The translations under genes were made by a program, and so were the position numbers. 21,714 nt of DNA from positions 60,804 through 82,517 of the IMG/VR virus record IMGVR_UViG_3300029309_000011; one strand, written 5' to 3'. Positions within the stretch are counted from its first letter, which is position 1. Each line of letters begins with the position of its first letter. A model generated the notes under the pieces. That model worked only from the letters and a program-made list of their open reading frames with translations, was not told where the DNA came from and made no database searches. This document shows, piece after piece, positions 888-16,786 of the stretch. Source of the stretch: a virus.

Positions 888-1889
888 TTACTCCATTACG
901 AGAAGTTTCTGACGGAATACTTCAGGATTCTGTTGAGCAGCATTTAGATATCTCCATGCGTTCTGAGGATCTCTATCAGCAGCCCCTCCGAAGTCCTTCC
1001 AAAAGTCACCTGCATCAGCTGGAGCCTGTGGAGCTGGAGGTACAGGCATATCTGGTCTTACAGGAGCCTGAGCTTGAGCCTGTGGATTTTGGAACTGACG
1101 ACCTGCAAAGGTAGGAGCCTGCTGAGGTGCAGCCTGATCTTCTTCTACTGGATATGGTCCGTTTGCTCCAAAGAACTCACATGTATAATCAGCTAGTACA
1201 TCTGGGTCTGTCAAGATCTGTTCATAAGCTTTATGCTCTTGAGACATTTCTTGTAGAAGACTTACAGCTTCAGTTAATTGCTGATTTGTAAGTATTAATG
1301 AATCTTCAATCTGACAAGCATAGTTATTTAAAACTGCTGGAGCATCAGCACCAAAATGATTGATGACTTCAAGGCTGGCTTCACTTACTCCGTTTGCCCT
1401 TAGCTGCTGGTCTGTTATCTCCGAAGAAGCTTGGGAAGAGTTGTTGGAGTACGCCTGGCTGTTGTTGTTCGAAGGCGTATAGGTCTGCTGAGCCGGATTG
1501 CTGTACTGGGTTGTTTGTGGGTATCCGTAATTGGCCTGGTCTGCTGCTGGTGTCGTTTGAGATTGTTGACCCTGGAACGGGAATTGGACTGGAGAACTCA
1601 GGAGCCCCACTACCCTGTTGAATGCGTCCTTGTATGGGTTCTCCGCTTGTGGAGTTGCCTGCTGTGGCTGGGAGTTGTACGCTGTAGGGGCTGATGGGTA
1701 ACCCTGAACCCCCATCTGGGCTTGCACTTGTGGTGCTGGTGCCATCTGTGTTGTCTGTGGTGCCACCCATTGTGGGGAAGTCGCCACGGAAGGTGCTTGG
1801 GCTGCTGTTTGAGGAGCCACGTAGCTGGTCTGTGGGGTCTGGGATACTTGGGGTGCCGATTGGGTCTGAGCTGCGGTAGCGTCCTGCAT
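888..1889 (-). CDS. Gln/Pro-rich protein, candidate scaffold, starts inside the portal gene
   Basis: The 333-residue product has a low-complexity Gln/Pro/Ala/Thr/Ser-rich N-terminal half with one better-ordered patch (ENPYKDAFNRVVGLL, residues 83-97), an acidic helical segment (about 160-245), a second Pro/Ala/Gln-rich linker and a C-terminal helix that ends RQKLLVME. Size, composition and position directly after the portal fit a capsid scaffold, but no motif proves it. Residues 1-170 are encoded by the same bases as the last 169 codons of the portal, in another frame. Its ATG has a Shine-Dalgarno GAGG 6 bases upstream, inside the portal gene, which supports real initiation. It ends just before a strong terminator. 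Confidence 0.8.
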   Translation of the reverse strand: MQDATAAQTQSAPQVSQTPQTSYVAPQTAAQAPSVATSPQWVAPQTTQMAPAPQVQAQMGVQGYPSAPTAYNSQPQQATPQAENPYKDAFNRVVGLLSSPVQFPFQGQQSQTTPAADQANYGYPQTTQYSNPAQQTYTPSNNNSQAYSNNSSQASSEITDQQLRANGVSEASLEVINHFGADAPAVLNNYACQIEDSLILTNQQLTEAVSLLQEMSQEHKAYEQILTDPDVLADYTCEFFGANGPYPVEEDQAAPQQAPTFAGRQFQNPQAQAQAPVRPDMPVPPAPQAPADAGDFWKDFGGAADRDPQNAWRYLNAAQQNPEVFRQKLLVME

Positions 1890-3624
1890 AAGTTACCTCT
1901 TTTTGTAAGCTTTCTAGTGTTCGGTATAAAAATGGAGTGAGATCAAGACGAGGATCTGCTGCCATTGGTAGATTAGGCTGCTGAGGGTGTGGAGTCCTCA
2001 TCTCTTGATTTATTAAATCAATAAATGAAGAATATGCCCTCTGTACTTCTCCAACCATTCTGAATGGAAAGCCGGAAAGCATTCCCGCAATTTCGTCATC
2101 AGTTTTGGAAGGAAATAAATACTTCAGTGCTTCTATACTATCAACCCCCAATTCTTGAAGGTTTCTAGTAAAGATAGATTGGTTTAATTTATCCTGTGCC
2201 GTATCTTCGTACACAGGACCCATCCATCTCCAAAGTACCGTTCTATCACCGTCTGGTGCAAGTCCTACAACTCCTTGCGGAATCTCTTGTGTTTCTATTG
2301 CGGTATTAATAGAATCTTGTAATTTTTGTTCGTATTTTGCTTTTTGTTTTCTAAATTTGTCTACTTGTTTTTGATCTTCTATGTCTTCTGGTGGAACTGG
2401 TAATTTTAAACCTGAAGCAAAAGCAAGTGATTTTCTGAAAATTTGTTCTTCATGAAAAATCATTAATTCGAAACATCTACAAATTCCATAAGTATAAATT
2501 TGTAAGCATTTCTTTTTAGCTGTTGCACTAACTCGACCATATGCAGATTTAATTTCAGTAGCTGTTACATTAGTAATACTTAAATCATCAATACCACCGA
2601 GAGCTAATCTAATTTCACTTCTTAATTGTTCTGTATATCTTGCTTGATCTGATCCAACTGGATTAGGAGTTATAAATCCTACACGATCTGATGGTTCCAA
2701 ATTAGCAATTACTCTTGGAACTCTCATACCACTGCCAGGTTTTCCTGTATACCCAGCTGGAGATCTTGTTACAGGATCTGATTTGTATGTTGAGCTAAAT
2801 AGATTTACATCAGAAGCAAATCCAGACTGACTGGATATACTTGGCCTCTGAACTGTATCAGCATCGCTTTCTACAATGTCTTGTTTGGGTCTAGATGAAA
2901 GAAGAGTTGGATTACCAAAGAATGATAAATTAGCTCTAATATTTTTAACCATTTCATCATGAGCAACAATCTGATTTGATAAGAAATCAAATTCACCTGC
3001 CCCATCTGTTCCAAACGCATCTGGATTATTAAATACTTCTACACATGGAATAAACTCCATTGTATTTTCGACAACCTTTTTATCAAAAGTGGCAAAATTT
3101 ATATTTTCTTGTTCAAATGTTATTTCTTGTTCGCTATGAAATTCTTCTACTTCTTTTGCAGTTATTCTTAATCTCATATATCTTTTGTCTGTATTTAAAC
3201 CAACTCCAGAAAAACCTTTGGATGATCTTACCTTGTAAGGATAAATAATAATTACTTCTTCAAGCTCTCCCTCTGGAGAATAATATGTTCTATAAGAATC
3301 TTTGTTAAACCAATAAAGCCTGTAAGATTTTTCTGTTGGTCTTATATAAAATAATCCTTTCCCGTAAACTAAAAATCTATCCCATATTGCATCTAACCTT
3401 GCATCTAATTGATTAAATTTAATTACTTGTTGAATAAAATCAAATCTTTGAGTTCCGAGATTATCTTGCAACGGGTAATATTCAACACCTTGTCTAATCC
3501 CAAACATCTTCATTTGAGATAAATGAGAACTAATTAGCATGGTGTCTGCAGTTCCTTTACCGTCCCTTGTAATGACGGATTTGATCATATCCTCCAGAAC
3601 TGATTTGCTATTACTTTCACTCAT
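1381..3624 (-). CDS. Portal protein (head-tail connector)
   Basis: The 747-residue product sits one small gene after the large terminase, the usual place for the portal, the dodecameric ring through which DNA is packaged. The N-terminal region (about 1-210) has aromatic and charged segments such as WFNKDSYRTYY and a receptor-like beta region. The middle has long helices (about 330-470) including a Lys/Gln/Glu-rich coiled-coil stretch, followed by VLWRWMGPVYED. These fit large podovirus-like portals, though I recognise the family by overall look and context rather than a catalytic motif. The last 169 residues are Ser/Gly/Pro/Thr-rich and end with a basic AAKGKRSK; this tail is encoded over 1381-1889, the start of the scaffold-like gene. 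GC there is far above the rest of the gene. Confidence 0.85.
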   Translation of the reverse strand: MSESNSKSVLEDMIKSVITRDGKGTADTMLISSHLSQMKMFGIRQGVEYYPLQDNLGTQRFDFIQQVIKFNQLDARLDAIWDRFLVYGKGLFYIRPTEKSYRLYWFNKDSYRTYYSPEGELEEVIIIYPYKVRSSKGFSGVGLNTDKRYMRLRITAKEVEEFHSEQEITFEQENINFATFDKKVVENTMEFIPCVEVFNNPDAFGTDGAGEFDFLSNQIVAHDEMVKNIRANLSFFGNPTLLSSRPKQDIVESDADTVQRPSISSQSGFASDVNLFSSTYKSDPVTRSPAGYTGKPGSGMRVPRVIANLEPSDRVGFITPNPVGSDQARYTEQLRSEIRLALGGIDDLSITNVTATEIKSAYGRVSATAKKKCLQIYTYGICRCFELMIFHEEQIFRKSLAFASGLKLPVPPEDIEDQKQVDKFRKQKAKYEQKLQDSINTAIETQEIPQGVVGLAPDGDRTVLWRWMGPVYEDTAQDKLNQSIFTRNLQELGVDSIEALKYLFPSKTDDEIAGMLSGFPFRMVGEVQRAYSSFIDLINQEMRTPHPQQPNLPMAADPRLDLTPFLYRTLESLQKEVTYAGRYRSSDPIGTPSIPDPTDQLRGSSNSSPSTFRGDFPTMGGTTDNTDGTSTTSASPDGGSGLPISPYSVQLPATAGNSTSGEPIQGRIQQGSGAPEFSSPIPVPGSTISNDTSSRPGQLRIPTNNPVQQSGSADLYAFEQQQPGVLQQLFPSFFGDNRPAAKGKRSK

Positions 3625-3641
3625 TAGATTAAGAACCTAGT

Positions 3642-3824
3642 TTATTGATCAATGGTGTATCCAGCGTGAAGACGTTTAAATGTCAATACATCCCCCTCAC
3701 ATTCTACTTCAAACCTTTCATTAGGCTCAAGTGCCAAATCATGACATAGCTCATCAGGAAGAGGAATTACAGCAGATCCATATGCATCTTGCTCTAATTC
3801 AATTTTGTAATACGTTGGTGCCAT
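3642..3824 (-). CDS. Small AbrB/MazE-like protein (60 residues)
   Basis: The sequence reads like a swapped-hairpin AbrB fold: a short strand (YYKIELEQ), then IPLPDELCHDLALEPNE, matching the family pattern of IP..l...L.L..gd, then a strand pair (FEVECEGDVLTFKRL). Known members are DNA-binding transition-state regulators and antitoxins of the MazE type. No toxin gene is next to it: it lies between the terminase and the portal, 17 bases before the portal start. It could regulate late genes or be an assembly factor using the same fold. No Shine-Dalgarno site is visible; the leader is TTAACAAACAATGG. Confidence 0.6.
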   Translation of the reverse strand: MAPTYYKIELEQDAYGSAVIPLPDELCHDLALEPNERFEVECEGDVLTFKRLHAGYTIDQ

Positions 3825-3852
3825 TGTTTGTTAATACTAATAGTTTAAGTGG

Positions 3853-5376
3853 TCAATACTCTAACTCAAGTTTGCCACGGGTCATTAACCCATTACATAG
3901 CCATACTAAGGCATCAACACAATCGTCATGTGAGCTAACCCCAAAATTTATAATCTCATCTGTTAAATAACCCATCTTTCGATACTTATTAAAAATGATT
4001 TTTCTTTGTTCAAAAAGCCCCATGATCCCACGGAATCTTGCAACCTTATCCCCACGAAATCCTTTTACAGGATGCCATATCAAATTATATAATCCTTGCT
4101 CTTGTAAACATATTCTTTTGAAATCTGCCTCTAATGAAGCTTGATAGGCAACCGCCTCTGACCATACATCAATAGAACTACCTGTAGGAAAATAATTTTT
4201 TCCGTCTTTATGAATAATTCCCCATTCTTCCATCATTTCCATCAAAATTTCTAATTTTTCTAAATTTCCCATTACTCGAACTCTTTTACAATCTATGATG
4301 TGAATTTTATCTTTTACCCTGCCACCCATGACAAAAACTGTATAATCATTTTGTTCTCTAATACCAGCGGATAAATCAACCCCAACTCCTAACGTGTCAA
4401 ACTCTGTAGATATAGTTCCTTTAACAATTAAATCTGGAGAAAGAGATAATTCACTAGTTTGCACAATTTGATTTTGATATTGAAAACTAAATGCAATTGG
4501 GGCTGTTCTTCTCCTTTCACTCAAATATTCGAGTGACCACATATCCGGCCAATAAGATATTTCTTCACCCTCTTCATCAACAGTAATTGCAGATTGAACT
4601 ATTTGTTTCCAGCCACCTGATGGTAAAAAAGTTGTATTGTGAATATCATCATGTCTAAATCTAGTTCCTAAACAAATAGCTCTTGCACCTTCGAACATAG
4701 TTGGAACAATAACTGCATTCCAGTTATCTTCCATAGCTTGTCGAATATCTTTATTTTTAATATCGTCAGAACTTTTTATTGCGTCATCTATTATGCAAAG
4801 ATGTGATCTTTTTGAAGTAACAGCACCTTTTAATCCAGCACAACATACACTAAATTCTTCTTCACCTGTAGATTTTATTCCTGCAAATTTCCAATCAATA
4901 CTCCAGTATTCATTAGAATTTATTCCTTTCGCAATCTTTACCATTGGAAAAATTTCTTTATAAATTTTACTCTCTTCAATAATTCTTTTTATTGCTGCAC
5001 TTTTAGGTCTAGCTACATCAACTGTATAAGAAATATATAAAATTTTTAGAGGCATTTTATTTAAGGCATGTATACCAATAGCCCAAGCTGTGTATAGTCC
5101 TAAAACTGTTGATTTGGCAGAACCTCTAGGGGCAAGAATATCGATATTTGGACCGGCAATACCTTTTAAACAAACACTATCAGTATCAGTACAAAGATAT
5201 TTATGCCATTCAAGATGGTGTTTTGCTGGAGGTTTTCCCCCTACAACATCACAAAAATATGCAAAATTTTTCCTAGCCTTTTCAACATCTACATTAGAAG
5301 TTTTTTTTACTACTTGTTGTTTTGCAGCTGCTCTAGCTGTGCGTCTATAAACGCTATAAAGACTTGTACCTGCCAT
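3853..5376 (-). CDS. terL: Terminase large subunit (DNA-packaging ATPase and nuclease)
   Basis: This 507-residue protein carries both terminase domains. The ATPase half has a Walker A-type loop APRGSAKST (82-90), a Walker B strand CIIDD (194-198) and a coupling-type segment GTRFRHDD (237-244). The RNase H-like nuclease half has GVGVDLSAG (331-339, Asp334), acidic residues in SIDVWSEAV (401-409) and HDDCVDALVWL (483-493). Its job is to cut concatemeric phage DNA and pump it through the portal into the prohead. It follows the candidate small subunit by 24 bases and precedes the AbrB-like gene and the portal. Length and motif order are normal for the family, and no key residue seems missing. Confidence 0.95.
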   Translation of the reverse strand: MAGTSLYSVYRRTARAAAKQQVVKKTSNVDVEKARKNFAYFCDVVGGKPPAKHHLEWHKYLCTDTDSVCLKGIAGPNIDILAPRGSAKSTVLGLYTAWAIGIHALNKMPLKILYISYTVDVARPKSAAIKRIIEESKIYKEIFPMVKIAKGINSNEYWSIDWKFAGIKSTGEEEFSVCCAGLKGAVTSKRSHLCIIDDAIKSSDDIKNKDIRQAMEDNWNAVIVPTMFEGARAICLGTRFRHDDIHNTTFLPSGGWKQIVQSAITVDEEGEEISYWPDMWSLEYLSERRRTAPIAFSFQYQNQIVQTSELSLSPDLIVKGTISTEFDTLGVGVDLSAGIREQNDYTVFVMGGRVKDKIHIIDCKRVRVMGNLEKLEILMEMMEEWGIIHKDGKNYFPTGSSIDVWSEAVAYQASLEADFKRICLQEQGLYNLIWHPVKGFRGDKVARFRGIMGLFEQRKIIFNKYRKMGYLTDEIINFGVSSHDDCVDALVWLCNGLMTRGKLELEY

Positions 5377-5400
5377 GTCTAAAGCATAGCGTATTTTCTA

Positions 5401-5886
5401 TTAAGATTCTTCCTGAAGTATTTTTGTCCATACTCCCATAGATGCTTCTTGTAAAGGACCCTCGATAGGATCATCTCGAAAAATAGATAACATTTCTCTT
5501 AATGCTCTATCAGCTCCAGCAAGAATTAATCCTTGTTTATCCATAAGAACTTTTTTATCATCTAATTGTTTTATTGCTCCACGTAATTCTTTTTGTAACA
5601 TTGCAATTCTTGCAGCACCCATATCTTGCTTTACTAAACCCATGTCAATAGCTTGCCTAAGTTTTGAAATGTCATCCTGCATATTATCTATCTCTCTTTC
5701 TAAAACTATGTTGAAATTTCGTTTTTTAAATTCTTTTTCTGTCCATTCGTTACACTCCACTATCGTCCCTTGAAATCCTAAAAATCGGGAAAATAAATAT
5801 ATCTGTACTGGAGAAGCTGTCTTTTTACAAAATTCAAGAAAGGATTCACGATCTTTGTTATTTAAAGACTGAATCCATTTCTTCAT
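5401..5886 (-). CDS. Candidate terminase small subunit
   Basis: The 161-residue product lies directly upstream of terL, where the DNA-recognising small subunit usually is. It has an N-terminal mostly helical part (KDRESFLEFCKKT, FSRFLGF), a cysteine and acidic patch (VECNEWTEKEF), then a long predicted coiled-coil (about residues 60-115, MQDDISKLRQAIDMG to KQLDDKKVLMDKQ) and an acidic tail. Small terminases often combine a helix-turn-helix with a central oligomerisation coiled-coil, so size and layout fit. I cannot point to a certain DNA-binding motif, so the call rests mainly on position. Its ATG overlaps the TGA of the upstream gene (ATGA). Confidence 0.5.
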   Translation of the reverse strand: MKKWIQSLNNKDRESFLEFCKKTASPVQIYLFSRFLGFQGTIVECNEWTEKEFKKRNFNIVLEREIDNMQDDISKLRQAIDMGLVKQDMGAARIAMLQKELRGAIKQLDDKKVLMDKQGLILAGADRALREMLSIFRDDPIEGPLQEASMGVWTKILQEES

Positions 5887-6734
5887 ACTCTATAAGAACC
5901 TCTTGCTTGTTGAAAATCTCTATTCTCTTTATAGCGTCTAAACATCTCTCTTTGCAACTCTGTAGATCTTTGTTCTGCTGCTGTTCTGCTAACAGTTGAT
6001 CTTTGTTCTTGCCCAGTAGTTCTGATGCCAGCTCTCTGTTCCTCCCCAGTAACCCTTGTAGTAGCTCTTGTTTCCTGTCCAGAGGTTCTTCTTAAAGCTC
6101 TATCTTGTTCCCCTGTTGTTCTAATTCCAGCTCTCTGTTCCTCCCCAGTAACCCTAGTAGTCGCTCTAGTTTCTTGTCCAGTAGTTCTTATACCTGCTCT
6201 TTGTTCTTGCCCTGTAGTTCTTATCCCTGCCCTTTGCTGTCTACCAGTCTCTGCTGTTCCAAGACGATCTTGTAGTCCGGTTTCTCTGATGCCGGCTCTT
6301 TGTTCTAAACCTCTTCTCTGTTCAGTTAAACGTGTCTGTGATCCTTCTATTCTTCTTAAATCTCTTTGTTCAGTTCCTTGTGTTCGTAGAATAGACCTTT
6401 CCTGCTCTCCTCTTAGTCCTATTTGCCTTTCTTGTTGATTTGCTAATTGAGCTTGAGTTGCTCTTTCTTGTAAAGCTCTATTTGTTTCTGTAAGCCTAGT
6501 TTCCTGTCCGGCAACTTGTGTAGATAATCTATTTTCTGCCGCAGTTGCTTGAGTTCTTCTTATGTCTTGAGTAGCAAAGGCTTCTGCGTTTATCCGATCT
6601 AATTCTGCTCCTAATTCTTGATTCAATCTTTGTTGTTTTTGTGCAGCTTCATTAAGAGCTATTTGTGTGTCTAAACTTTGTGATGGTACCTGAACAACTA
6701 TGTTCCCTAAATCCGATAATGTTTCTTCTTCCAT
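5883..6734 (-). CDS. Coiled-coil virion-type protein built from 11-residue repeats
   Basis: The 283-residue product is almost entirely helical, Gln/Arg/Glu/Thr-rich and without Cys or membrane segments. From about residue 111 to 253 it follows an 11-residue period with consensus (E/Q)xRAxxRxTGx, for example EQRAGIRTTGQ, ETRATTRVTGE and EQRAGIRTTGE. A regular 11-residue period is a known signature of hendecad, right-handed or straight coiled coils, so an extended rod is likely. The N-terminus (1-60) and a C-terminal basic-aromatic tail (MFRRYKENRDFQQARG) lie outside the repeats. It sits among structural genes, and its stop overlaps the next start. The function is unknown; an internal virion or fibrous role is inferred. 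No Shine-Dalgarno site is evident. Confidence 0.75.
   Translation of the reverse strand: MEEETLSDLGNIVVQVPSQSLDTQIALNEAAQKQQRLNQELGAELDRINAEAFATQDIRRTQATAAENRLSTQVAGQETRLTETNRALQERATQAQLANQQERQIGLRGEQERSILRTQGTEQRDLRRIEGSQTRLTEQRRGLEQRAGIRETGLQDRLGTAETGRQQRAGIRTTGQEQRAGIRTTGQETRATTRVTGEEQRAGIRTTGEQDRALRRTSGQETRATTRVTGEEQRAGIRTTGQEQRSTVSRTAAEQRSTELQREMFRRYKENRDFQQARGSYRV
5976..6404 (-). repeat. Thirteen-unit 33-bp coding tandem repeat
   Basis: The 33-base period encodes the 11-residue units of the coiled-coil gene. The best-preserved units span residues 166-242 (bases 6009-6239). A two-unit block (ETRATTRVTGE then EQRAGIRTTG) occurs twice, 99 bases apart, which suggests a recent internal duplication. 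Outer units are diverged. The periodic antisense frames here are a by-product of the repeat. Confidence 0.85.
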
Positions 6735-6775
6735 TTTTTTTCTAATCTAATATTTTAATTTTAACTTAGACTATT

Positions 6776-7696
6776 TTATGCACTGAAACTTACGTTTCTT
6801 GGATTCACTCCAATAGCAGCCATTCTTGTAGCTGCGTCCTGTGCAGCTGCAATTGCAGCAGCTTGTTGAGCAAATCCTGTATCACCTGCCAACAAACGTG
6901 TCTGTACAGCATTAGGCATTCCTTGTTTAATTGCCTCTGCATCTAAAAGCTGCTGTTGTTTAAATGATGTTATATCTTTCAGCGTATTTGTGACAAAAGG
7001 CATATTAGCTCTCATAACTGCTGATTCTAAAGCTGTATCTATTAATTTATTTTTTCTATTAATTCCAGCCATTTTTGTATTAAAATCTATTATTGCTTCG
7101 GCAGCTTCTTTGGTACTCTCTACTGGATTTTTGCTCACCTCCTCAATTTCAGTCTTTAATTGATCTTTAATTGTTTTACTTAATTTAAAATCAGTAGGTT
7201 GTCCACCAAAACCTCTAAGGGATTTTGCACTTCCAAATAATCCACCACCTTGCTGATCAAAATCGGTAAGACCAAATGTTGAGGCATCAAGAATTTGTGC
7301 TAAAGCTCCTTGTAGACCTGTAGGTCTATTTTTACCTACAAGTCTTTTTAATTTAGGATCATATTCCTGTTCGTAAAATTCTGCACCCCCAATTTGAGCA
7401 GGTGTAGGAAAGAAACGTAAACCACTTTTTTTCATTTTTTCTACGAAAGTATCAGCTTTTTTTGCAACCGGTACTACAGGAATTAAATTTCTACCGCCTC
7501 CAAGCTCTCTTAGAGCTGCTTCCATAGGAATTTCTTTAAATTCTGCAAGCTCAGAAACAGTTAGAGGTATTTTTTGATTAATTTTTTTATTTTCTTCTTT
7601 TAAATCAACATCTCTTTTTCCAGAACCAAGATCAAGACCCTTGAAATTGAATAAGTCTGAGTCGATGTCTGAGAAGTCTAAAAGGTAATCATTCAT
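6776..7696 (-). CDS. Hypothetical virion-type protein (306 residues)
   Basis: I do not recognise the family. The N-terminus is acidic (MNDYLLDFSDIDSDLF), followed by a charged segment, a central region with FFPTPAQIGGAEFYEQ (about 94-109), a Gly-rich stretch (about 146-168) and a long Ala/Gln-rich helical C-terminal third ending NPRNVSFSA. There is no signal peptide or membrane segment. It starts one base after the stop of the upstream Gly/Ala-rich gene, so the two are probably translationally coupled. An internal head or ejected protein is plausible from context. Confidence 0.65.
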   Translation of the reverse strand: MNDYLLDFSDIDSDLFNFKGLDLGSGKRDVDLKEENKKINQKIPLTVSELAEFKEIPMEAALRELGGGRNLIPVVPVAKKADTFVEKMKKSGLRFFPTPAQIGGAEFYEQEYDPKLKRLVGKNRPTGLQGALAQILDASTFGLTDFDQQGGGLFGSAKSLRGFGGQPTDFKLSKTIKDQLKTEIEEVSKNPVESTKEAAEAIIDFNTKMAGINRKNKLIDTALESAVMRANMPFVTNTLKDITSFKQQQLLDAEAIKQGMPNAVQTRLLAGDTGFAQQAAAIAAAQDAATRMAAIGVNPRNVSFSA

Positions 7697-7697
7697 C

Positions 7698-8471
7698 TTA
7701 GTAGTTGTACTGTTGAGTTAAAGCTTGACCAGCTTGCTGGGCAGCTGTAGTTCCCAAGTTTCTTGTAGCATCAGCCATCCCTAGAGTCAATGCTGCATTA
7801 GTTGCAATATTTTGAGCAATACCTCTTGAAGCCATGCTTCTAGCAAAGTCATCTTTCTTAGCCTGCTCAGAAAACTTACGTAATGTAGGTAGAACAATGT
7901 TTGTTGCATCTCTTAAAGATTGAGCATCTTTTTGAGTTCTTAATCTTCTACCAGCATCTAAACCAAGTGGGCTAACAACATCAAGAGGATAACCAGTTGG
8001 ACCTACATTTCCATATGGTCCCATCCCTGGTGGTAAAGGAACTCCTCCCATACCTTCATTACCAATCGTTCCATATCCTGCTAATCCAAGAGCTCCACTA
8101 GCAACATTCTTAGTTGGTCCACCTAAAACATTAGCTGCTGATCCTCCAGCAAGGGCACCTAATCCTAATGGAATTCCAGCTTGAGCCACACCCTGTAATG
8201 CTGCTATATTTCCTGGAGTTAAACCTGCTTTTGTTCCTGCAGAAAATATTCCTTTAAGTGCTGGTTTTGTTGCCATTCCAGCTGCAGAGCCTAAACCTAA
8301 AGTACCTATAGCTCCTAATCCGCCACCAACTACAGCTCCTCCTAAATCTCCTCTCATTAATGAAGGGAGTGCACCTGAAGTAATACCAGCTGCTCTAAGA
8401 AGGAAAGGTAATTTAGCTGCACCTACTTTAGCCAATGGTGCCAGAAACATACCTGCTAACGGAATTCCCAT
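7698..8471 (-). CDS. Gly/Ala-rich, membrane-active-looking virion protein
   Basis: The 257-residue product has an N-terminal hydrophobic segment (MGIPLAGMFLAPLAKVG), then long Gly/Ala/Leu-rich stretches with GxxxG-like spacing (VVGGGLGAIGTLGLGSAAG, about 47-65, and LGLGALAGGSAANVLGG, about 101-117), a Pro/Gly-rich hinge (about 138-165) and a helical, more polar C-terminus. Such sequences occur in ejected or pore-forming virion proteins and in holins. The length and the neighbours favour a virion protein over a holin; this is inference. A weak Shine-Dalgarno AAGAGA precedes the ATG. Confidence 0.65.
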   Translation of the reverse strand: MGIPLAGMFLAPLAKVGAAKLPFLLRAAGITSGALPSLMRGDLGGAVVGGGLGAIGTLGLGSAAGMATKPALKGIFSAGTKAGLTPGNIAALQGVAQAGIPLGLGALAGGSAANVLGGPTKNVASGALGLAGYGTIGNEGMGGVPLPPGMGPYGNVGPTGYPLDVVSPLGLDAGRRLRTQKDAQSLRDATNIVLPTLRKFSEQAKKDDFARSMASRGIAQNIATNAALTLGMADATRNLGTTAAQQAGQALTQQYNY

Positions 8472-8509
8472 TTTCTCTTTTATAAAATTCTTATTAGCAA
8501 TATTCTAAA

Positions 8510-8734
8510 TTAACTATTCTTTGCCTTTAGTTCTTTTTTTGCTTCTCTCATATATTCATATAAAACGTCCATATTTAACATCAAAATACCATCGATTTCT
8601 ACAACAGCCTCTGGAATAATTTCTTGTACCTGTTGAGCAGAAAAACCTGCCCTTAACTTTTGTTCTGGATCAAGTTCTTTTTTATATCTAAACTGTATAG
8701 GTTGTAATTTTTTTAATTTCTCAAGAGCACTCAT
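8510..8734 (-). CDS. Peptidase_S74-like chaperone segment (C-terminal part)
   Basis: The 74-residue product matches the second half of the intramolecular chaperone domain found at the end of phage tail spikes and fibres. The parts are SALEKLKKLQPIQFRYK, then RAGFSAQQVQEIIPEAVV, then GILMLNMDVLYEYMREAKKEL, following the family pattern of aLekL..l.P..f.y, GfiAQeVqe.iPe.v and l.mn...L. The first half, with DIRLK, is in the upstream overlapping gene in another frame. The 14-base overlap (8721-8734) means the products either associate as two chains or are joined by a +1 frameshift. No separate Shine-Dalgarno site is clear, so expression probably depends on the upstream gene. Confidence 0.65.
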   Translation of the reverse strand: MSALEKLKKLQPIQFRYKKELDPEQKLRAGFSAQQVQEIIPEAVVEIDGILMLNMDVLYEYMREAKKELKAKNS

Positions 8735-9350
8735 TTAAATCTTTTACAAAGAAAGCACATTCTGATAATACGTCATTTACCTCTGATTTTTGTAAGAGAG
8801 TAATATCCTCTTTTAATCTGATATCACAGAGAAATCCGCCTAACACTCCTCCAACTATTCCTCCTACTCCTGGGAAAAGTGCATTACCAAGTACTGAACC
8901 AGCCATTCTGCCAACACTACTCTTAGCTTGTCTTGCTTCGGCTGCTTTTTGTATTTCTTGTTGATTTTTTAGGGCTATTGCTTCATTCACAGCATTATTA
9001 TTTCCTCTCCGAATAGAAAGGTTAGGTCCAACTTGAGAAAATCCAGAATCACCTCCTTTTCCCAAACCAGAAACAAAATCAAAAAATCTTTCTTGCGAAC
9101 TTTTTTCTACTGGTCTGTATGTTTTGTAGGGATCTTCATCTGTAAACATTTTTTTAAGTGCTTCGTTTTGTGTAAATCCTCTATCTATAAATTTATCTAA
9201 AAATGATTTCTCTTTTCCTGGAGGAGAATAAATATCACCAAAATCTGGCATATTTTCAACATAATCTTTTGCTTTTGGACCGGTAAAAAATGGTGAAGGA
9301 CTTTTTCTCTCCTGTAATAGTCCAAAAAAGCTAGGCATCGAATCTGTCAT
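8721..9350 (-). CDS. Virion-type protein ending in a CDIRLK motif
   Basis: The 209-residue product begins MTDSMPSFFGLLQERKSPSP and then has FFTGP (21-25), shared with the 159-residue gene nearby. A charged middle is followed by a Gly-zipper-like segment (NALFPGVGGIVGGVLGGFL, about 155-173) and then CDIRLKEDITLL, the start of a Peptidase_S74-type motif with Cys where self-cleaving members have Ser. It stops 30 residues later at DLNECS, where the next gene continues the domain in the +1 frame. A good Shine-Dalgarno site (AAGGAT) precedes the ATG. It may be a membrane-contacting virion protein; its exact role is unknown. Confidence 0.65.
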   Translation of the reverse strand: MTDSMPSFFGLLQERKSPSPFFTGPKAKDYVENMPDFGDIYSPPGKEKSFLDKFIDRGFTQNEALKKMFTDEDPYKTYRPVEKSSQERFFDFVSGLGKGGDSGFSQVGPNLSIRRGNNNAVNEAIALKNQQEIQKAAEARQAKSSVGRMAGSVLGNALFPGVGGIVGGVLGGFLCDIRLKEDITLLQKSEVNDVLSECAFFVKDLNECS

Positions 9351-9382
9351 AAAATTATCCTTTTTTATAAATTATAAAATCC

Positions 9383-9928
9383 CTACGCACGAAGTCCTGT
9401 TCCATATAACCCTCTTCCAAATATACCTACCTCATCTAAAATACTTTTTTCAAAGGCTCTATCTCCCATACCACCATATAAAGATCCCGGATATTGTGCT
9501 CCTGGAACTCTAGACTCAGCTCTTGCTTGTACCAGCATCATGTCATGCATAAACTTCTGATTCTGTAATTGCTGCTGCTGTAAAAGAGCCTGCATTTCAG
9601 CATTTCCTAGTCCAGAAGTCATGGGTTGACTATATTCAGATTGTTGATCCATCATATTAGCTGCTGCAAAACCTGTTCCTATCACTGCTGCTTGACCAGC
9701 TAATTTGCCTACCTGCGGAACTACAGAACTAGGATTATTTCTAAGTAATCTTGGAACTTCTTTTCCAACTTTTCCTGCTAATTCTGGAGCAAACCTTTGG
9801 ACTCCATAATTCAAAGCAGCTGTTGCAGCATCCTGTCCTACCTTTCCACCAATATCTAAAGCTTTATCTAAATATCCACCAAGCTGACTTCCAGCAGTTC
9901 TTAAAAAACTTTTTGCTATTTGATTCAT
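9383..9928 (-). CDS. Hypothetical virion-type protein (181 residues)
   Basis: I do not recognise it. The N-terminal 90 residues are small-residue-rich and amphipathic (GGYLDKALDIGGKVGQDAAT, then VGKLAGQAAVIGTGFAAANM at about 72-91, mildly hydrophobic). A Gln-rich helix follows (ALLQQQQLQNQKFMHDMM, about 114-131), then a Gly/Tyr-rich C-terminus. It starts two bases after the stop of the upstream gene without a Shine-Dalgarno site, so translational coupling is likely. Composition resembles the neighbouring Gly/Ala-rich protein, suggesting a set of internal or ejected virion proteins. Confidence 0.65.
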   Translation of the reverse strand: MNQIAKSFLRTAGSQLGGYLDKALDIGGKVGQDAATAALNYGVQRFAPELAGKVGKEVPRLLRNNPSSVVPQVGKLAGQAAVIGTGFAAANMMDQQSEYSQPMTSGLGNAEMQALLQQQQLQNQKFMHDMMLVQARAESRVPGAQYPGSLYGGMGDRAFEKSILDEVGIFGRGLYGTGLRA

Positions 9929-9930
9929 AA

Positions 9931-10410
9931 TTACACTGCCACCGAGTTGCTTGGGAATTTACCAGCTACATTTGGATCTGAGTACCCATTTCCACTTGCT
10001 GCTGGAGAGGATACTAAACCAGTTGGAGCCATACTATCCTGTGTTATTAGTCTATCAGCCTCAACTAATCCTCGACCTCCAGCTGTGTCAGCTCCAAAGT
10101 AAGGATCATATTTAGACATCCATACATCAACTCTTTGGGAAATACTAGGATCTTGGAAGGTGTTACCACCAAATTGTGCTTTAAAATTATAATCTGCATT
10201 CGCAGTTTCAGCTGAAGTATCTGGAAACTCCTGATAAAATTGATCACTTCTAACATTTTCGTTAAATTTTCCACGAAATGGATCAGGGTCATTAACATTA
10301 TATCTTGGCTTTGATGGACCTGTAAAGAATTGAGCAACAGGTTTATTCTCTCTATAAGCCTTATCTTGCGGTGAAGTTAATCTTCTATTTAGGTTAGTAA
10401 CAACGACCAT
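9931..10410 (-). CDS. Hypothetical virion-type protein (159 residues) with FFTGP motif
   Basis: I do not recognise it. The N-terminus is basic (MVVVTNLNRRLTSPQDKAYR) and leads to PVAQFFTGPSKPRYNVNDPD (24-43), whose FFTGP core recurs in the 209-residue protein. The rest is polar, aromatic and Asp/Asn-rich (AQFGGNTFQDP, SKYDPYFGADTAGG) without membrane segments, ending SNSVAV. It looks like a soluble, partly disordered virion component. The gene starts three bases after the stop of the 62-residue gene, with no Shine-Dalgarno site. Confidence 0.6.
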   Translation of the reverse strand: MVVVTNLNRRLTSPQDKAYRENKPVAQFFTGPSKPRYNVNDPDPFRGKFNENVRSDQFYQEFPDTSAETANADYNFKAQFGGNTFQDPSISQRVDVWMSKYDPYFGADTAGGRGLVEADRLITQDSMAPTGLVSSPAASGNGYSDPNVAGKFPSNSVAV

Positions 10411-10413
10411 AGT

Positions 10414-10602
10414 TTAAGATTTAAATAGTGCTTTCTCTAATTGTGCAACAAGTAAATCATCAACCTCATTTCCAGTTTTAGCTGCAGCCTTTTTTAAAAT
10501 AGAAACTACAAACTTTTTTATCACTTCATCAAGGTCTTCAGGTATGTTATCAACAGCTTTGTTGATAATGTTAATTGCAATTGGGAGTAAAAATTTAGTC
10601 AT
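10414..10602 (-). CDS. Small helical protein (62 residues), unknown
   Basis: I do not recognise it. Beginning MTKFLLPIAINIINKAVDN, it has an amphipathic, mildly hydrophobic first helix and then a charged helical part (EDLDEVIKKFVVSILKKAA, VDDLLVAQLEKALF). The first helix is too short and too polar for a sure membrane anchor, so I do not call a holin. No Shine-Dalgarno site; the leader AACGAACAAACAATTATG resembles the leader of the AbrB-like gene at 3824. It lies between the first and second large structural-type genes. Confidence 0.55.
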   Translation of the reverse strand: MTKFLLPIAINIINKAVDNIPEDLDEVIKKFVVSILKKAAAKTGNEVDDLLVAQLEKALFKS

Positions 10603-10636
10603 AATTGTTTGTTCGTTAAGTCTAATTTAGCAAAGG

Positions 10637-12118
10637 TCACATTATGATATCACCGAGATCAGCCTGACCTTGCACTATTCTTGCTTTTGGAGAAAGAAAT
10701 TCGAAAATTTCGCCTGCTTTTCTTTTTTTACCTGGTTTTGCTTCCTCCATTCCTCTATCCATATATGTATCAAAAGTGCTCGCATCTAATGACCCTTGAA
10801 TGATATCTTCTGCTCTGGGAGCTACACCAAAACCATAAGTGGTGGCTTTTGTTGGTGACTGATCAATTGGTCTATTTGCCAAAACAAAACCTACTTGAGA
10901 ATCACCATTGGTTGCTGGAATTCGTGTAATACCTAATGACTGATTACCTCTTTGACCTCTGACTATATCTGATCTAGCTCCCTCTACAAATTGAGCCATA
11001 AAATTATCTCTTGCCATTCTTTTTTTAGCAGTTTTCTCTTTAAGTCTCATACGTGCAGCATCTCTTTCTTCTTGTGGTATTCCTGCTTGTATAGCTTCAA
11101 ATGTTGATTGATCTTTTCCTGCTAATACATTAGGACTCCTTCCAACTTGCATTTCACTTGGTGTAGGAGCTTCATTGACAATTTGATCAATAACATTTTT
11201 ATTTCTTTCCATAGCATCTAACTTTCGCATCTCTCGATGAAAATTATTTATATCTCTAGTTTGTTTATTTACAATTCCAGGAAGATTATTATCATCTTCG
11301 CCACCAACAATATCAGGATGATCTAATAATGGTGAGCTATCTCCAATACGTGGTTCAGCACTTATTCTTTCCCCTATTGCCCCTAGTAATGCTTGATCAA
11401 GTCCTTTTTGTGACATAAATTTGTTTAAATCATTTTTACCTAATGCTGAGCCCTCCATGCCAGATCTCATTTGACTTTCTACCTGTACTGGGTCGGTAAA
11501 TCCACTGGGTCTGCTATCTTGAAACTCACTGAGAACCTCTGCAACATTTGGATTTTCATCTACTACCTGTGATCCCTGTTCAATCTTTCTGTTAACAATA
11601 TTTGATGAAGTTTGATTTGGTACAAAATCTTGACCATAATAGTCCGCAGTCGTTCCATCTATTAAAGATTGGTAATAATCAGGCAAAGCTTGACTTAAGT
11701 CAATTTTTTGTACCCCAGAATTTGCCATTCTTGCTAAATCTTTTCTGCCCTCCATCTCTATAGACTTTCTTTTTGTTTTTTCCTGTTCTATCTGTAATTC
11801 TTCAGAAGCTTGAACTGGATCACTAGTGGTAGCAGCCTCAGACTTAGTTTTATCCGACTGATTTCTTAATTGTTCTTGTATTCTTGCTTGTTCTGCCATA
11901 CTTTCAGCAACCATTGGTGCTCCTATAGCCATAACAGCACTTTTCCCAATATTTTTTACTAAATTTCCTGTTTTTTCTAATAAATTTGGTTTTCTTGCAA
12001 AATTTTTGGTAAATTCAAATACTTCAGGAGCCATTTGCATGCGAGACATAGCATCAGAAGGCATTGGAGTACCAGTCATCCGGGAATATAGTTCAAAATC
12101 TCGTGGCGAAACAGGCAT
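10637..12118 (-). CDS. Large virion-type protein (493 residues), first gene of the structural unit
   Basis: I do not recognise a named family. The protein begins MPVSPRDFELYSRMTG and is hydrophilic throughout, with a short hydrophobic patch near residues 60-70 (AVMAIGAPMVAES). It has a charged coiled-coil-like stretch (about 73-130), an Asn/Asp-rich middle and a second basic helical region (about 345-375, RMRLKEKTAKKRMARDN). It ends in an ordered-looking tail (SPKARIVQGQADLGDIIM). It is the first minus-strand gene after the divergent regulatory region and has no Shine-Dalgarno site. A structural or ejected virion protein is inferred from size, composition and neighbours. Confidence 0.65.
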   Translation of the reverse strand: MPVSPRDFELYSRMTGTPMPSDAMSRMQMAPEVFEFTKNFARKPNLLEKTGNLVKNIGKSAVMAIGAPMVAESMAEQARIQEQLRNQSDKTKSEAATTSDPVQASEELQIEQEKTKRKSIEMEGRKDLARMANSGVQKIDLSQALPDYYQSLIDGTTADYYGQDFVPNQTSSNIVNRKIEQGSQVVDENPNVAEVLSEFQDSRPSGFTDPVQVESQMRSGMEGSALGKNDLNKFMSQKGLDQALLGAIGERISAEPRIGDSSPLLDHPDIVGGEDDNNLPGIVNKQTRDINNFHREMRKLDAMERNKNVIDQIVNEAPTPSEMQVGRSPNVLAGKDQSTFEAIQAGIPQEERDAARMRLKEKTAKKRMARDNFMAQFVEGARSDIVRGQRGNQSLGITRIPATNGDSQVGFVLANRPIDQSPTKATTYGFGVAPRAEDIIQGSLDASTFDTYMDRGMEEAKPGKKRKAGEIFEFLSPKARIVQGQADLGDIIM

Positions 12119-12203
12119 TATTAAAAATCAAAGCATTTATAGACATAATTTTAAGTTCTATACATTCGCCCCCTAGAACGCCTTAAAAACCCTTAAATTT
12201 GGG

Positions 12204-12233
12204 AAAAAAAAATTGGGGGTGTCAGGCCCGCCC
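12204..12233 (-). terminator. Leader terminator or attenuator ahead of the structural genes
   Basis: On the minus strand GGGCGGGCCTGACACCCCC (12233-12215) can fold as a GC-rich stem with one bulge, followed by AA and nine T residues (12212-12204). This is terminator-like and lies about 86 bases before the start codon at 12118, between any upstream promoter and the first structural gene. It may act as an attenuator or an antitermination target. The stem is only five paired bases plus a bulge, so strength is uncertain. Confidence 0.45.
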
Positions 12234-12250
12234 TTAACAAAATGTTGCAT

Positions 12251-12630
12251 TGTAACAAAAAAAAGAATATATAGGGGGCATTGTTACAGTATGTGACTAG
12301 GTATTGACAGGTCCGATGGAGATTATTACAGGATTATTACATTTATCGAGCTAAATATTACAAAATAGAGCAACTTTGTAAACTTTTTGCAATTTTAAAA
12401 TTTTATTTAAGTTACATTCTGTAATTTTCCCCACAAAGAAGCGAATTTCTAACAAAATGTAAAGTTTTTCCTGGTTTTGTAACGATTTTGCCCAAAATAT
12501 TGACATTTTACCCTCTTTTTATCCCTTTTTTATGAAAAATTGTAAAGAATCTCGGCCTTGCGGCCTTATATTCTGTGGAAAACTTTTGTGCAAAACTAAA
12601 TTTATTCTCTTTTTTATTAGATTTATTACA
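12251..12630. repeat. Cluster of TGTAA/TTACA motifs
   Basis: The motif TGTAA, or its complement TTACA, starts at 12251, 12284, 12326, 12337, 12358, 12377, 12412, 12420, 12458, 12478, 12541 and 12626. Several spacings (11, 21, 42, 63) are near multiples of a DNA turn. For DNA of this composition I would expect about two in this length. This could be a set of binding sites for a phage regulator or replication initiator. Confidence 0.5.
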
Positions 12631-12644
12631 CTTATTAATTTTAG

Positions 12645-12673
12645 TTGCACTTAAATAAGTGATCGTTTATTAT
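12645..12673 (+). promoter_or_regulatory. Sigma70-like early promoter with operator palindrome
   Basis: TTGCAC (12645-12650) and TATTAT (12668-12673) are separated by 17 bases, a good sigma70-type spacing, and lie about 60 bases before the first plus-strand gene. Between the boxes CACTTAAATAAGTG (12648-12661) is a perfect palindrome overlapping the -35 box, a natural place for a repressor. A second inverted repeat, GAGTTTTTAAAACTC (12683-12697), lies where transcription would begin and could be an operator or a 5' hairpin. Confidence 0.65.
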
Positions 12674-12729
12674 ATTTATATAGAGTTTTTAAAACTCAAT
12701 TCATCCTATTTATTAGAGGACTTTAAACA

Positions 12730-15503: not shown

Positions 15504-15674
15504 ATGAAAAGAAGATACATTGATGCTTATTACAATCTCAGATCTAACACCAGTATAGATCGCTTCAATAGACAAGAATGGAACAATGCATTTAAAGCTA
15601 TAGATGATCTAGCAAAAGCGGATCTGGAGGAGCTACAACAACCTAATCAAATCATCAAGGGAGATCTATTATGA
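15504..15674 (+). CDS. Tiny hypothetical protein (56 residues) upstream of the methyltransferase
   Basis: A 56-codon frame opens at 15504 behind a perfect AGGAGG Shine-Dalgarno site. The product starts MKRRYIDAYYNLRSN and ends LQQPNQIIKGDLL. It is helical and basic at the start, acidic in the middle (DDLAKADLEEL). I do not recognise it. Its TGA overlaps the ATG of the methyltransferase gene (ATGA), so translation of the two is probably coupled, and it may control methyltransferase level. Confidence 0.65.
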   Translation: MKRRYIDAYYNLRSNTSIDRFNRQEWNNAFKAIDDLAKADLEELQQPNQIIKGDLL

Positions 15675-16786
15675 ATCACCCAGAATTAAAAATCCTAGAT
15701 TTATTCTCAGGTATTGGTGGCTTTTCATATGCTGCCGAAAATTTCTTTCAAGGACAATTCAAAACTACTCAATTTGTAGAAATCAATCCTTACTGCCAAA
15801 AAGTCTTATCTAAAAATTTTACAGGAGTACCAATCCATGACAACATCAAAACATTTAAAGCAACAGAGGGACAATTTGACATCATTACAGGAGGATTTCC
15901 CTGTCAGGATATCTCAGTTGCAGGACAACAAAAAGGAATCGGAGAAGGAACTAGGTCAGGATTATTTTACGAGTGCATACGGTTACTTAGGGAAATTCGA
16001 CCAAAGTTCGCCATCTTTGAAAATGTTAGAAATTTACTCTCCATTGAAGAAGGGAAAGTATTCCAAGAAGTCCTCTTTCAAATTGCCCAAGCAGGGTATG
16101 ATGCTGAATGGTCAGTTGTTTCAGCAAGAGATGTGGGTGGCTGCCACCTTCGAGAGCGTGTCTGGATCTTATGCTACCCTAGCGACTCCGAATTGCATGG
16201 ACGCACTTCCCCAGAGAGGTTACGATTCGATGCTAAAACAAACTCAGGTACACAGAAAAGGAAGAACAAAACTAAGCAATCTGAGAGAGCAAGTAGACCC
16301 CAAAGCGAGACAATTATTCGAGGAGTTACAACAGATGAAACTTCCAACTCCAACCAGTCAGGAAGCAGGGAAGGGGGATTTTTTAAAGACACTAGTAACC
16401 AAAGATGGGAAGCCTGCAAAACTCGGACAGAGAGCATACAATCCGAAGACAGGGAAACACGTTCAGATAACTCTAGACAGAGCAGTAAAAATGAATCTAC
16501 CAACACCAACATCAAGGGATTGGAAGGACTCAGGGGAGAACATGAACTACAAGAAAGCTGCGGAGAAGAAAAGGCTCGTTGGCGTACTCAACCATACACA
16601 CTCAGACCTGACTGGAGAAGATACGACTCTGAACCCTGCCTTCGTAGAAGAAATGATGGGGTTCCCAATAGGATGGACGCAAATTGGAGAAACAGAAAAG
16701 AAAGAATAATCTGTTTAGGTAATGCTGTAACACCTCAGCAAGCTGCCATCCCACTAGGGAGAATCATTGACCTTATCAAGTCATAA
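15671..16786 (+). CDS. dcm: DNA cytosine-5 methyltransferase
   Basis: This 371-residue enzyme would transfer a methyl group from S-adenosylmethionine to carbon 5 of cytosine in a target DNA sequence. Visible motifs: I, DLFSGIGGFSYA (10-21); IV, GGFPCQDIS (74-82, catalytic Cys78); VI, ENVRNLL (117-123); VIII, RERVWIL (161-167); a target-recognition region (about 168-340) with SNSNQSGSREGG, NTNIKGLEG and RRNDGVPNRMD; and X, GNAVTPQQA (350-358). All catalytic motifs are present. The recognition region is Ser/Asn/Arg/Glu-rich, probably because the same bases encode a second protein over 15837-16709. Its start is coupled to the upstream tiny gene. No matching restriction enzyme is visible, so protection from host restriction is the likely use. 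The target site cannot be predicted here. Confidence 0.95.
   Translation: MNHPELKILDLFSGIGGFSYAAENFFQGQFKTTQFVEINPYCQKVLSKNFTGVPIHDNIKTFKATEGQFDIITGGFPCQDISVAGQQKGIGEGTRSGLFYECIRLLREIRPKFAIFENVRNLLSIEEGKVFQEVLFQIAQAGYDAEWSVVSARDVGGCHLRERVWILCYPSDSELHGRTSPERLRFDAKTNSGTQKRKNKTKQSERASRPQSETIIRGVTTDETSNSNQSGSREGGFFKDTSNQRWEACKTRTESIQSEDRETRSDNSRQSSKNESTNTNIKGLEGLRGEHELQESCGEEKARWRTQPYTLRPDWRRYDSEPCLRRRNDGVPNRMDANWRNRKERIICLGNAVTPQQAAIPLGRIIDLIKS
15837..16709 (+). CDS. Nested LPTPT/MMGFPIGWT-family protein inside the methyltransferase gene
   Basis: A 290-codon frame lies wholly inside the methyltransferase gene, shifted one base (+1). Its ATG has AGGAG (15823-15827) 9 bases upstream. The protein does not look random: KLPKQGMMLNGQLFQQ (82-97), LATPNCMDALPQRG (115-128), KGRTKLSNLREQV (141-153), LPTPTSQEA (169-177), LPTPTSRDWKDSGE (221-234) and LNPAFVEEMMGFPIGWTQ (265-282). 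From memory these match a family common in phages, often called hypothetical or attached to cytosine methylases, with Leu/Trp-Pro-Thr-Pro-Thr repeats and an MGFPxGWT end. Its role is unknown; an accessory or specificity partner for the methyltransferase is plausible. It ends 77 bases before the methyltransferase stop. Confidence 0.75.
   Translation: MTTSKHLKQQRDNLTSLQEDFPVRISQLQDNKKESEKELGQDYFTSAYGYLGKFDQSSPSLKMLEIYSPLKKGKYSKKSSFKLPKQGMMLNGQLFQQEMWVAATFESVSGSYATLATPNCMDALPQRGYDSMLKQTQVHRKGRTKLSNLREQVDPKARQLFEELQQMKLPTPTSQEAGKGDFLKTLVTKDGKPAKLGQRAYNPKTGKHVQITLDRAVKMNLPTPTSRDWKDSGENMNYKKAAEKKRLVGVLNHTHSDLTGEDTTLNPAFVEEMMGFPIGWTQIGETEKKE

Follow-up and report, generated by a model that had tools for sequence, protein, structure and literature searches.

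Can one strand of phage DNA encode two conserved proteins over the same 870 or so bases? The question is raised by a cytosine methyltransferase gene in a 21,714-nucleotide stretch of DNA (the window; positions 60,804 to 82,517 of the 82,517-base virus record IMGVR_UViG_3300029309_000011 in IMG/VR), within which a sequence-only reading had noticed a complete second gene and judged that both products seem to be conserved, in an arrangement for which it knew of no published description. The nested open reading frame (ORF) lies exactly where that reading had placed it: it begins with ATG, encodes 290 amino acids (15837-16709, plus strand), and occupies the +1 frame of the longer ORF at 15671-16786. 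The upstream AGGAG was read correctly as well, with 9 bases separating its end from the ATG, and the closest relative of the window gene (L005) has the identical ATG and AGGAG spacing. Hereafter, the product of the outer frame is called alpha and that of the nested frame beta.

The answer we reach, with a probability of about 0.9, is that the locus encodes one C5-cytosine DNA methyltransferase (C5-MTase), the two polypeptides of which are translated from overlapping reading frames on a single mRNA. Alpha would be read across the whole gene and would supply the S-adenosylmethionine (SAM)-binding and catalytic motifs I-VIII as well as motif X, with a long disordered linker between them. Beta would have a start of its own within the gene, an ATG preceded by a Shine-Dalgarno sequence; it would cross the catalytic segment of alpha as an unconstrained tail, and then encode the target-recognition domain (TRD) and motif IX. 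We infer that beta binds alpha and so rebuilds a complete and active M.HhaI-like enzyme, in which beta would set the DNA sequence that is methylated, and that the phage probably uses this enzyme to mark its own DNA against host restriction.

Motifs and homology of the two chains

The two frames were searched separately, as the sequence-only reading had advised. Pfam (PF00145, 3.4e-51), PHROGs (phrog_363, 1.7e-67), and NCBIfam agree in calling alpha a C5-cytosine methyltransferase, and alpha is the sole PF00145 match in the virus record. A family profile of alpha matches the catalytic domain of M.HhaI over motifs I-VIII (E 3.4e-46), and M.HhaI structures are the top PDB matches in a Foldseek search with its AlphaFold2 model (E 1.1e-16; four rows from annotated phage records were left out of the alignments used for structure models). 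Of the features expected of a C5-MTase, alpha has motifs I, IV (PCQ), VI (ENV), and VIII and the SAM-binding fold, but it lacks the TRD and motif IX that would be expected after motif VIII and before motif X, because alpha is unconstrained and disordered there and both are found in beta. The claim that the methyltransferase frame keeps its catalytic and C-terminal motifs therefore stands for motifs I, IV, VI, VIII, and X, and fails for motif IX, which is in the nested frame. The alpha model is confident at residues 1-175 (predicted local distance difference test score, pLDDT, mostly >90) and 339-371, the latter including helices 340-351 and 355-370 of motif X, and falls below 50 at 176-311 and 318-327, so that disorder is predicted between two ordered ends. 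The linker of alpha is nothing but the wrong-frame reading of the segment that encodes the TRD and motif IX of beta.

Beta matches phrog_1008 (6.8e-18), as do 63 of 63 aligned relatives, and scans against Pfam and NCBIfam return no match, including none to an HNH family. The repeated LPTPT motif described earlier is present twice, and the end of the protein contains LNPAFVEEMMGFPIGWT, as had been noted, followed by a short tail. The best guide to its identity is the single-chain methylase of the mycobacteriophage Cornucopia: the beta profile aligns to the in-frame stretch from TRD to motif IX (residues 278-396, E 5.8e-8), and the alpha profile aligns to residues 1-187, which precede that stretch (E 4e-58). 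In a profile-to-profile comparison, motif IX of beta aligns to the in-frame motif IX of single-chain relatives with E 1.3e-11. Further, the end of beta falls on motif IX (LTPRECWRLQGFPDW) of a classical phage C5-MTase, at the exact position, in an alignment that is not itself significant. As judged from these alignments, alpha and beta are two halves of a single methyltransferase, beta being the half with the TRD and motif IX.

These matches also bear on the alternative that beta is an independent phage protein, overprinted on the gene of the methyltransferase, with some other function (for instance, in anti-restriction or as a concealed homing endonuclease). Such proteins have a precedent, in that phage methylases can contain insertions that hide HNH endonucleases out of frame, as in the ShiLan element (PMC11855218). 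This element is the nearest phage precedent we found, and it resembles beta in being an ORF that a phage methylase gene conceals in a different frame; however, it is a mobile insertion encoding an HNH endonuclease, and beta is neither an insertion nor HNH. Given that beta matches no HNH, Pfam, or NCBIfam family, that its module occurs in frame between motifs VIII and X of single-chain methyltransferases, and that alpha is missing exactly motif IX and a constrained TRD, we consider an independent protein extremely unlikely.

Two side observations concern the composition of beta. A segment within the target-recognition region, PNCMDALPQRGYDSMLKQTQVHRKGRTKLSNLREQV (beta residues 115-163, window 16179-16325), recurs in distant betas, such as that of a Paenibacillus polymyxa plasmid (L292), and other betas are without it, as if the target-recognition part were assembled from exchangeable blocks. 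An N-terminal GMMxNG pattern was considered as a conserved beta motif and rejected, being the +1 reading of the codons for alpha GYDAEW.

Selection and stop codons along the two frames

Amino-acid selection was measured in 23 pairs, all distinct and independent, whose members share 78-98.5% DNA identity and in which substitutions were scored as synonymous or nonsynonymous in each frame against a mutation model; the nonsynonymous/synonymous ratio (w) comes from a simple method that uses a fixed transition weight and treats one site at a time. An earlier pair set contained duplicate contigs, and repeating the analysis with distinct sequences left the result unchanged. Upstream of beta, w is 0.30 for the alpha frame and 1.41 for the beta frame, and up to motif VIII the values are 0.35 (0.30-0.39) and 1.54. 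The relation is reversed over the TRD (alpha 1.88; beta 0.37, 0.25-0.52) and motif IX (alpha 1.12; beta 0.18, 0.12-0.26), and reversed again in the 3' part with motif X (alpha 0.28; beta 1.73). Contrasts between the frames are several-fold through both reversals, the bootstrap intervals of the two frames overlap in no segment, and the switch can be seen even in the single pair formed by the window gene and L005. Each segment has one frame that carries the protein and one that is only traversed. The per-frame check of constraint that had been proposed thus finds both frames constrained somewhere, but never strongly over the same segment, and the idea that some 870 bases encode two conserved proteins at once is rejected by this handover of constraint from frame to frame.

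Both frames are nevertheless kept open throughout. In a stop test, codons of the constrained frame were resampled synonymously and stops were counted in the other frame, with loci selected either through beta (63 non-redundant loci) or through alpha (37 loci). Among the beta-selected loci, the beta frame has 2 stops over motifs IV-VIII vs. 229 expected, and the alpha frame has 0 over the segment from TRD to motif IX vs. 537 expected; the corresponding counts among the alpha-selected loci are 0 vs. 147 and 0 vs. 282. Stops in the third frame, counted as a control, are avoided little if at all (323 vs. 337, 177 vs. 206, 553 vs. 415, and 308 vs. 242). The signal is present in the window alone, where the +1 frame stays open over motifs IV-VIII in ∼1% of resamplings of alpha codons (0 stops seen, 3.6 expected) and the alpha frame stays open over the TRD and motif IX in essentially none of the resamplings of beta codons (0 seen, 15.4 expected). 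Because stops are avoided in both frames, alpha is evidently read through to motif X and beta is read from upstream of motif VIII, which implies that two polypeptides are made that together amount to one complete enzyme.

The same counts weigh on two further explanations. If the nested ORF were a mere by-product, left open by base composition or by the codons that alpha uses and never translated, the lack of amino-acid constraint in the N-terminal 40% of beta would be expected; yet beta is constrained over the TRD and motif IX, where alpha is not, and stops are depleted by two orders of magnitude, whereas the third-frame controls match expectation, on which grounds a by-product is rejected as having a negligible probability. 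The sequence-only reading had held that its second gene would fall if homologues of the nested frame proved to be by-products found only within methyltransferase genes, with frequent stops and no purifying selection. The homologues do occur only inside methyltransferase genes, but they are without frequent stops and are under purifying selection. The nested gene is thus real in the sense of being conserved and translated, given the phrog_1008 matches, its openness, and the purifying selection on the TRD and motif IX, although not as a separate phage protein. Alternatively, programmed frameshifting might move ribosomes out of the alpha frame and into +1 in the vicinity of motif VIII, to give a fusion of alpha motifs I-VIII with the TRD and motif IX alongside full-length alpha, with no internal initiation at all. 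Frameshifting is common in phages, and many betas are not preceded by a strong Shine-Dalgarno sequence. However, a slip at the junction would work without an open +1 frame ahead of motif VIII, yet that frame is kept almost free of stops there; further, the window has a good internal start site. Stop avoidance therefore speaks against slippage as the main route and for internal initiation at the AGGAG and ATG, and we regard frameshifting as very unlikely.

Relatives and layouts across phages

The nested arrangement, familiar from one bacterial enzyme, proves to be common among tailed phages. We collected 181 loci by searching viral contigs with beta and then with an alignment of betas, to which genome contigs and annotated phages were added; a few contigs are represented by two or more locus identifiers, and a handful of loci entered via alpha. 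Beta is nested at +1 in the methyltransferase ORF in 180 of these, and the remaining one (L046), in which alpha is frameshifted and beta is still +1 to the main part of alpha, brings the layout to 181 of 181. A search with the alpha alignment recovered a nested beta in 79 of 80 loci, the exception being L255; because both searches favor genes closely related to that of the window, the two fractions apply to this family, as opposed to C5-MTases in general. An initial scoring of L046 as +2 was rejected, since its alpha is broken by a frameshift. L255 was likewise rejected as a natural single-chain form, as it has a one-base frameshift inside motif IX (at ∼2700-2800) that breaks both frames and is either a mutation or an assembly error.

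Beyond this set, other layouts appear. Cornucopia and many of its relatives have a one-chain methylase in which motif VIII is followed, without a change of frame, by the LPTP repeats and MMGWPAGW and then by motif X. A mixed sample of phages, picked through searches and not at random, contained 27 single-chain genes, nine in which the +1 frame holds both motif IX and motif X (the layout of M.AquI), and eight nested genes. Several actinophage methylase genes (L281, L283, L284, L285, and L291) are split in an M.AquI-like way: the two ORFs overlap, and the one in +1 has both motif IX and motif X. Such pairs are usually annotated as two DNA methylases. In six near relatives of the Cornucopia methylase (L316, L317, L318, L320, L322, and L324), the tail lies in the +1 or +2 frame and most have several stops in the alpha frame, representing either natural splits or decay. 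Annotation of the nested form is uneven: both ORFs are annotated as methyltransferases in Paenibacillus phage Leyra, and alpha alone is annotated, with beta missed, in Synechococcus phage S-H1 and Mycobacterium phage Hades (L282 and L288 between them). In KT997847 (L286), the gene is cut into two adjacent wrong coding sequences. Outside phages, phrog_1008 is rare in bacterial chromosomes (2 of 296 genomes, all 296 from a single phylum), and when E. coli genomes were searched at the DNA level with a relative from a Salmonella phage, only phage-like copies turned up.

A bolder proposal is that nested alpha/beta genes are a major, largely unannotated class of phage C5-MTases, with beta as a separate specificity subunit whose hypervariable LPTPT repeats are exchanged or diversify and so alter which site is methylated, the catalytic alpha remaining constant, and with betas that could act in trans on other alphas. 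We offer it tentatively and think it rather doubtful.

Comparison with known enzymes and layout of the locus

Known alpha/beta C5-MTases include M.EcoHK31I, which recognizes YGGCCR, and M.AquI, which recognizes CYCGRG. Lee, Kam, and Shaw reportedly found in 1995 that the small-subunit ORF of M.EcoHK31I lies inside the large one in a different frame, as beta does in alpha. The closest match is indeed M.EcoHK31I, and the supposed lack of a published counterpart does not hold: both enzymes are natural two-polypeptide C5-MTases, and in M.EcoHK31I the larger chain carries motifs I-VIII and X and the predicted TRD, and the smaller motif IX only (PMC3404938). The window pair likewise has motifs I-VIII and X on the large chain and IX on the small. 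M.AquI also has the catalytic motifs I-VIII on one chain and IX on the other, but there motifs IX and X lie together on the small chain, whereas motif X of the window is in alpha; the phage equivalents of M.AquI are the split-tail genes of DarthPhader, KingMidas, Float294, and Juno112. Cornucopia gp70 shares the catalytic domain and the LPTP...MMGWPAGW module for TRD and motif IX, with all motifs in one frame. Judged by its motif layout, the window gene belongs to the M.EcoHK31I kind of two-polypeptide C5-MTase. M.EcoHK31I is part of a restriction-modification system, whereas the window gene is a phage gene with no restriction enzyme noticed nearby. The PHROGs labels of phrog_363 and phrog_1008 are both DNA methyltransferase and are silent on these being nested halves of one enzyme. 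A literature search, with most subscription journals outside its reach, turned up no account of such nesting in phages, and the breadth of the nested form and the missed annotation of beta seem to be unreported.

Several results count against a two-polypeptide enzyme of this kind. Folded alone, beta gives a low-confidence model (mean pLDDT 60; <50 across most of residues 1-120), for which a Foldseek search of the PDB returned nothing meaningful, and a PDB sequence search with the beta profile matched no chain. A poor lone fold and empty searches would fit a subunit that depends on its partner, and are not positive evidence for one. Some homologues have no obvious Shine-Dalgarno sequence ahead of the beta start. 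Finally, the predicted TRD of M.EcoHK31I is on the large subunit, whereas that of the window is constrained only in beta; the M.EcoHK31I assignment is itself a prediction, may be wrong, and is not clearly a defining feature.

Coordinates are collected in Table 1. Elsewhere in the window, the minus strand from 1384 to 12118 includes genes for a virion structural protein (1384-3624) and the terminase large subunit (3856-5376); after an A+T-rich gap (∼12120-12729), the plus strand carries the methyltransferase and small genes of unknown function, divergent from the minus-strand genes.

Table 1. Features of the alpha/beta locus, in window positions
Feature	Position	Strand	Evidence
Alpha, C5-cytosine methyltransferase large polypeptide, 371 amino acids	15671-16786	+	ORF; PF00145; phrog_363; M.HhaI match
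Alpha motifs I-VIII, catalytic domain	15695-16186	+	AlphaFold2 pLDDT; Foldseek match to M.HhaI; alpha w 0.35, beta w 1.54
Motif sequences LDLFSGIGGF; GGFPCQ; ENV; RERVW	within 15695-16186	+	
Codon of alpha catalytic Cys78 (in GGFPCQ)	15902-15904	+	
Alpha ENV	16019-16027	+	
Alpha linker, motif VIII to motif X	16187-16684	+	pLDDT; alpha w; stop counts
Alpha motif X (LGNAVTPQQAAIPLGRIIDLI)	16685-16783	+	Confident helices; alpha w 0.28 in 3' part
Beta, nested small polypeptide, 290 amino acids	15837-16709	+	+1 relative to alpha; ORF; phrog_1008; nesting in relatives
Internal ribosome-binding site (AGGAG 15823-15827) and beta ATG (15837-15839)	15823-15839	+	Sequence; L005
Beta N-terminal tail, overlapping alpha motifs up to VIII	15837-16178	+	Beta w 1.54; few stops; pLDDT <50
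Beta target-recognition region (LATPN.., LPTPTSQE.., LPTPTSRDWK..)	16179-16628	+	Beta w 0.37, alpha w 1.88; Cornucopia alignment
Beta motif IX (LNPAFVEEMMGFPIGWT)	16629-16679	+	Beta w 0.18; alignment to in-frame motif IX of single-chain relatives

As annotated, a phage methyltransferase of this type is a single protein with neither TRD nor motif IX, and the missing half goes unnoticed; alpha cloned alone would probably yield an inactive enzyme. The locus also provides a clean worked example of how two long overlapping genes on the same strand avoid conflict, by alternating amino-acid selection segment by segment while both frames remain free of stops. Because one family includes single-chain, split-tail, and nested forms, it becomes possible to trace how such overlaps evolve and to test this in laboratory phages of M. 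smegmatis.
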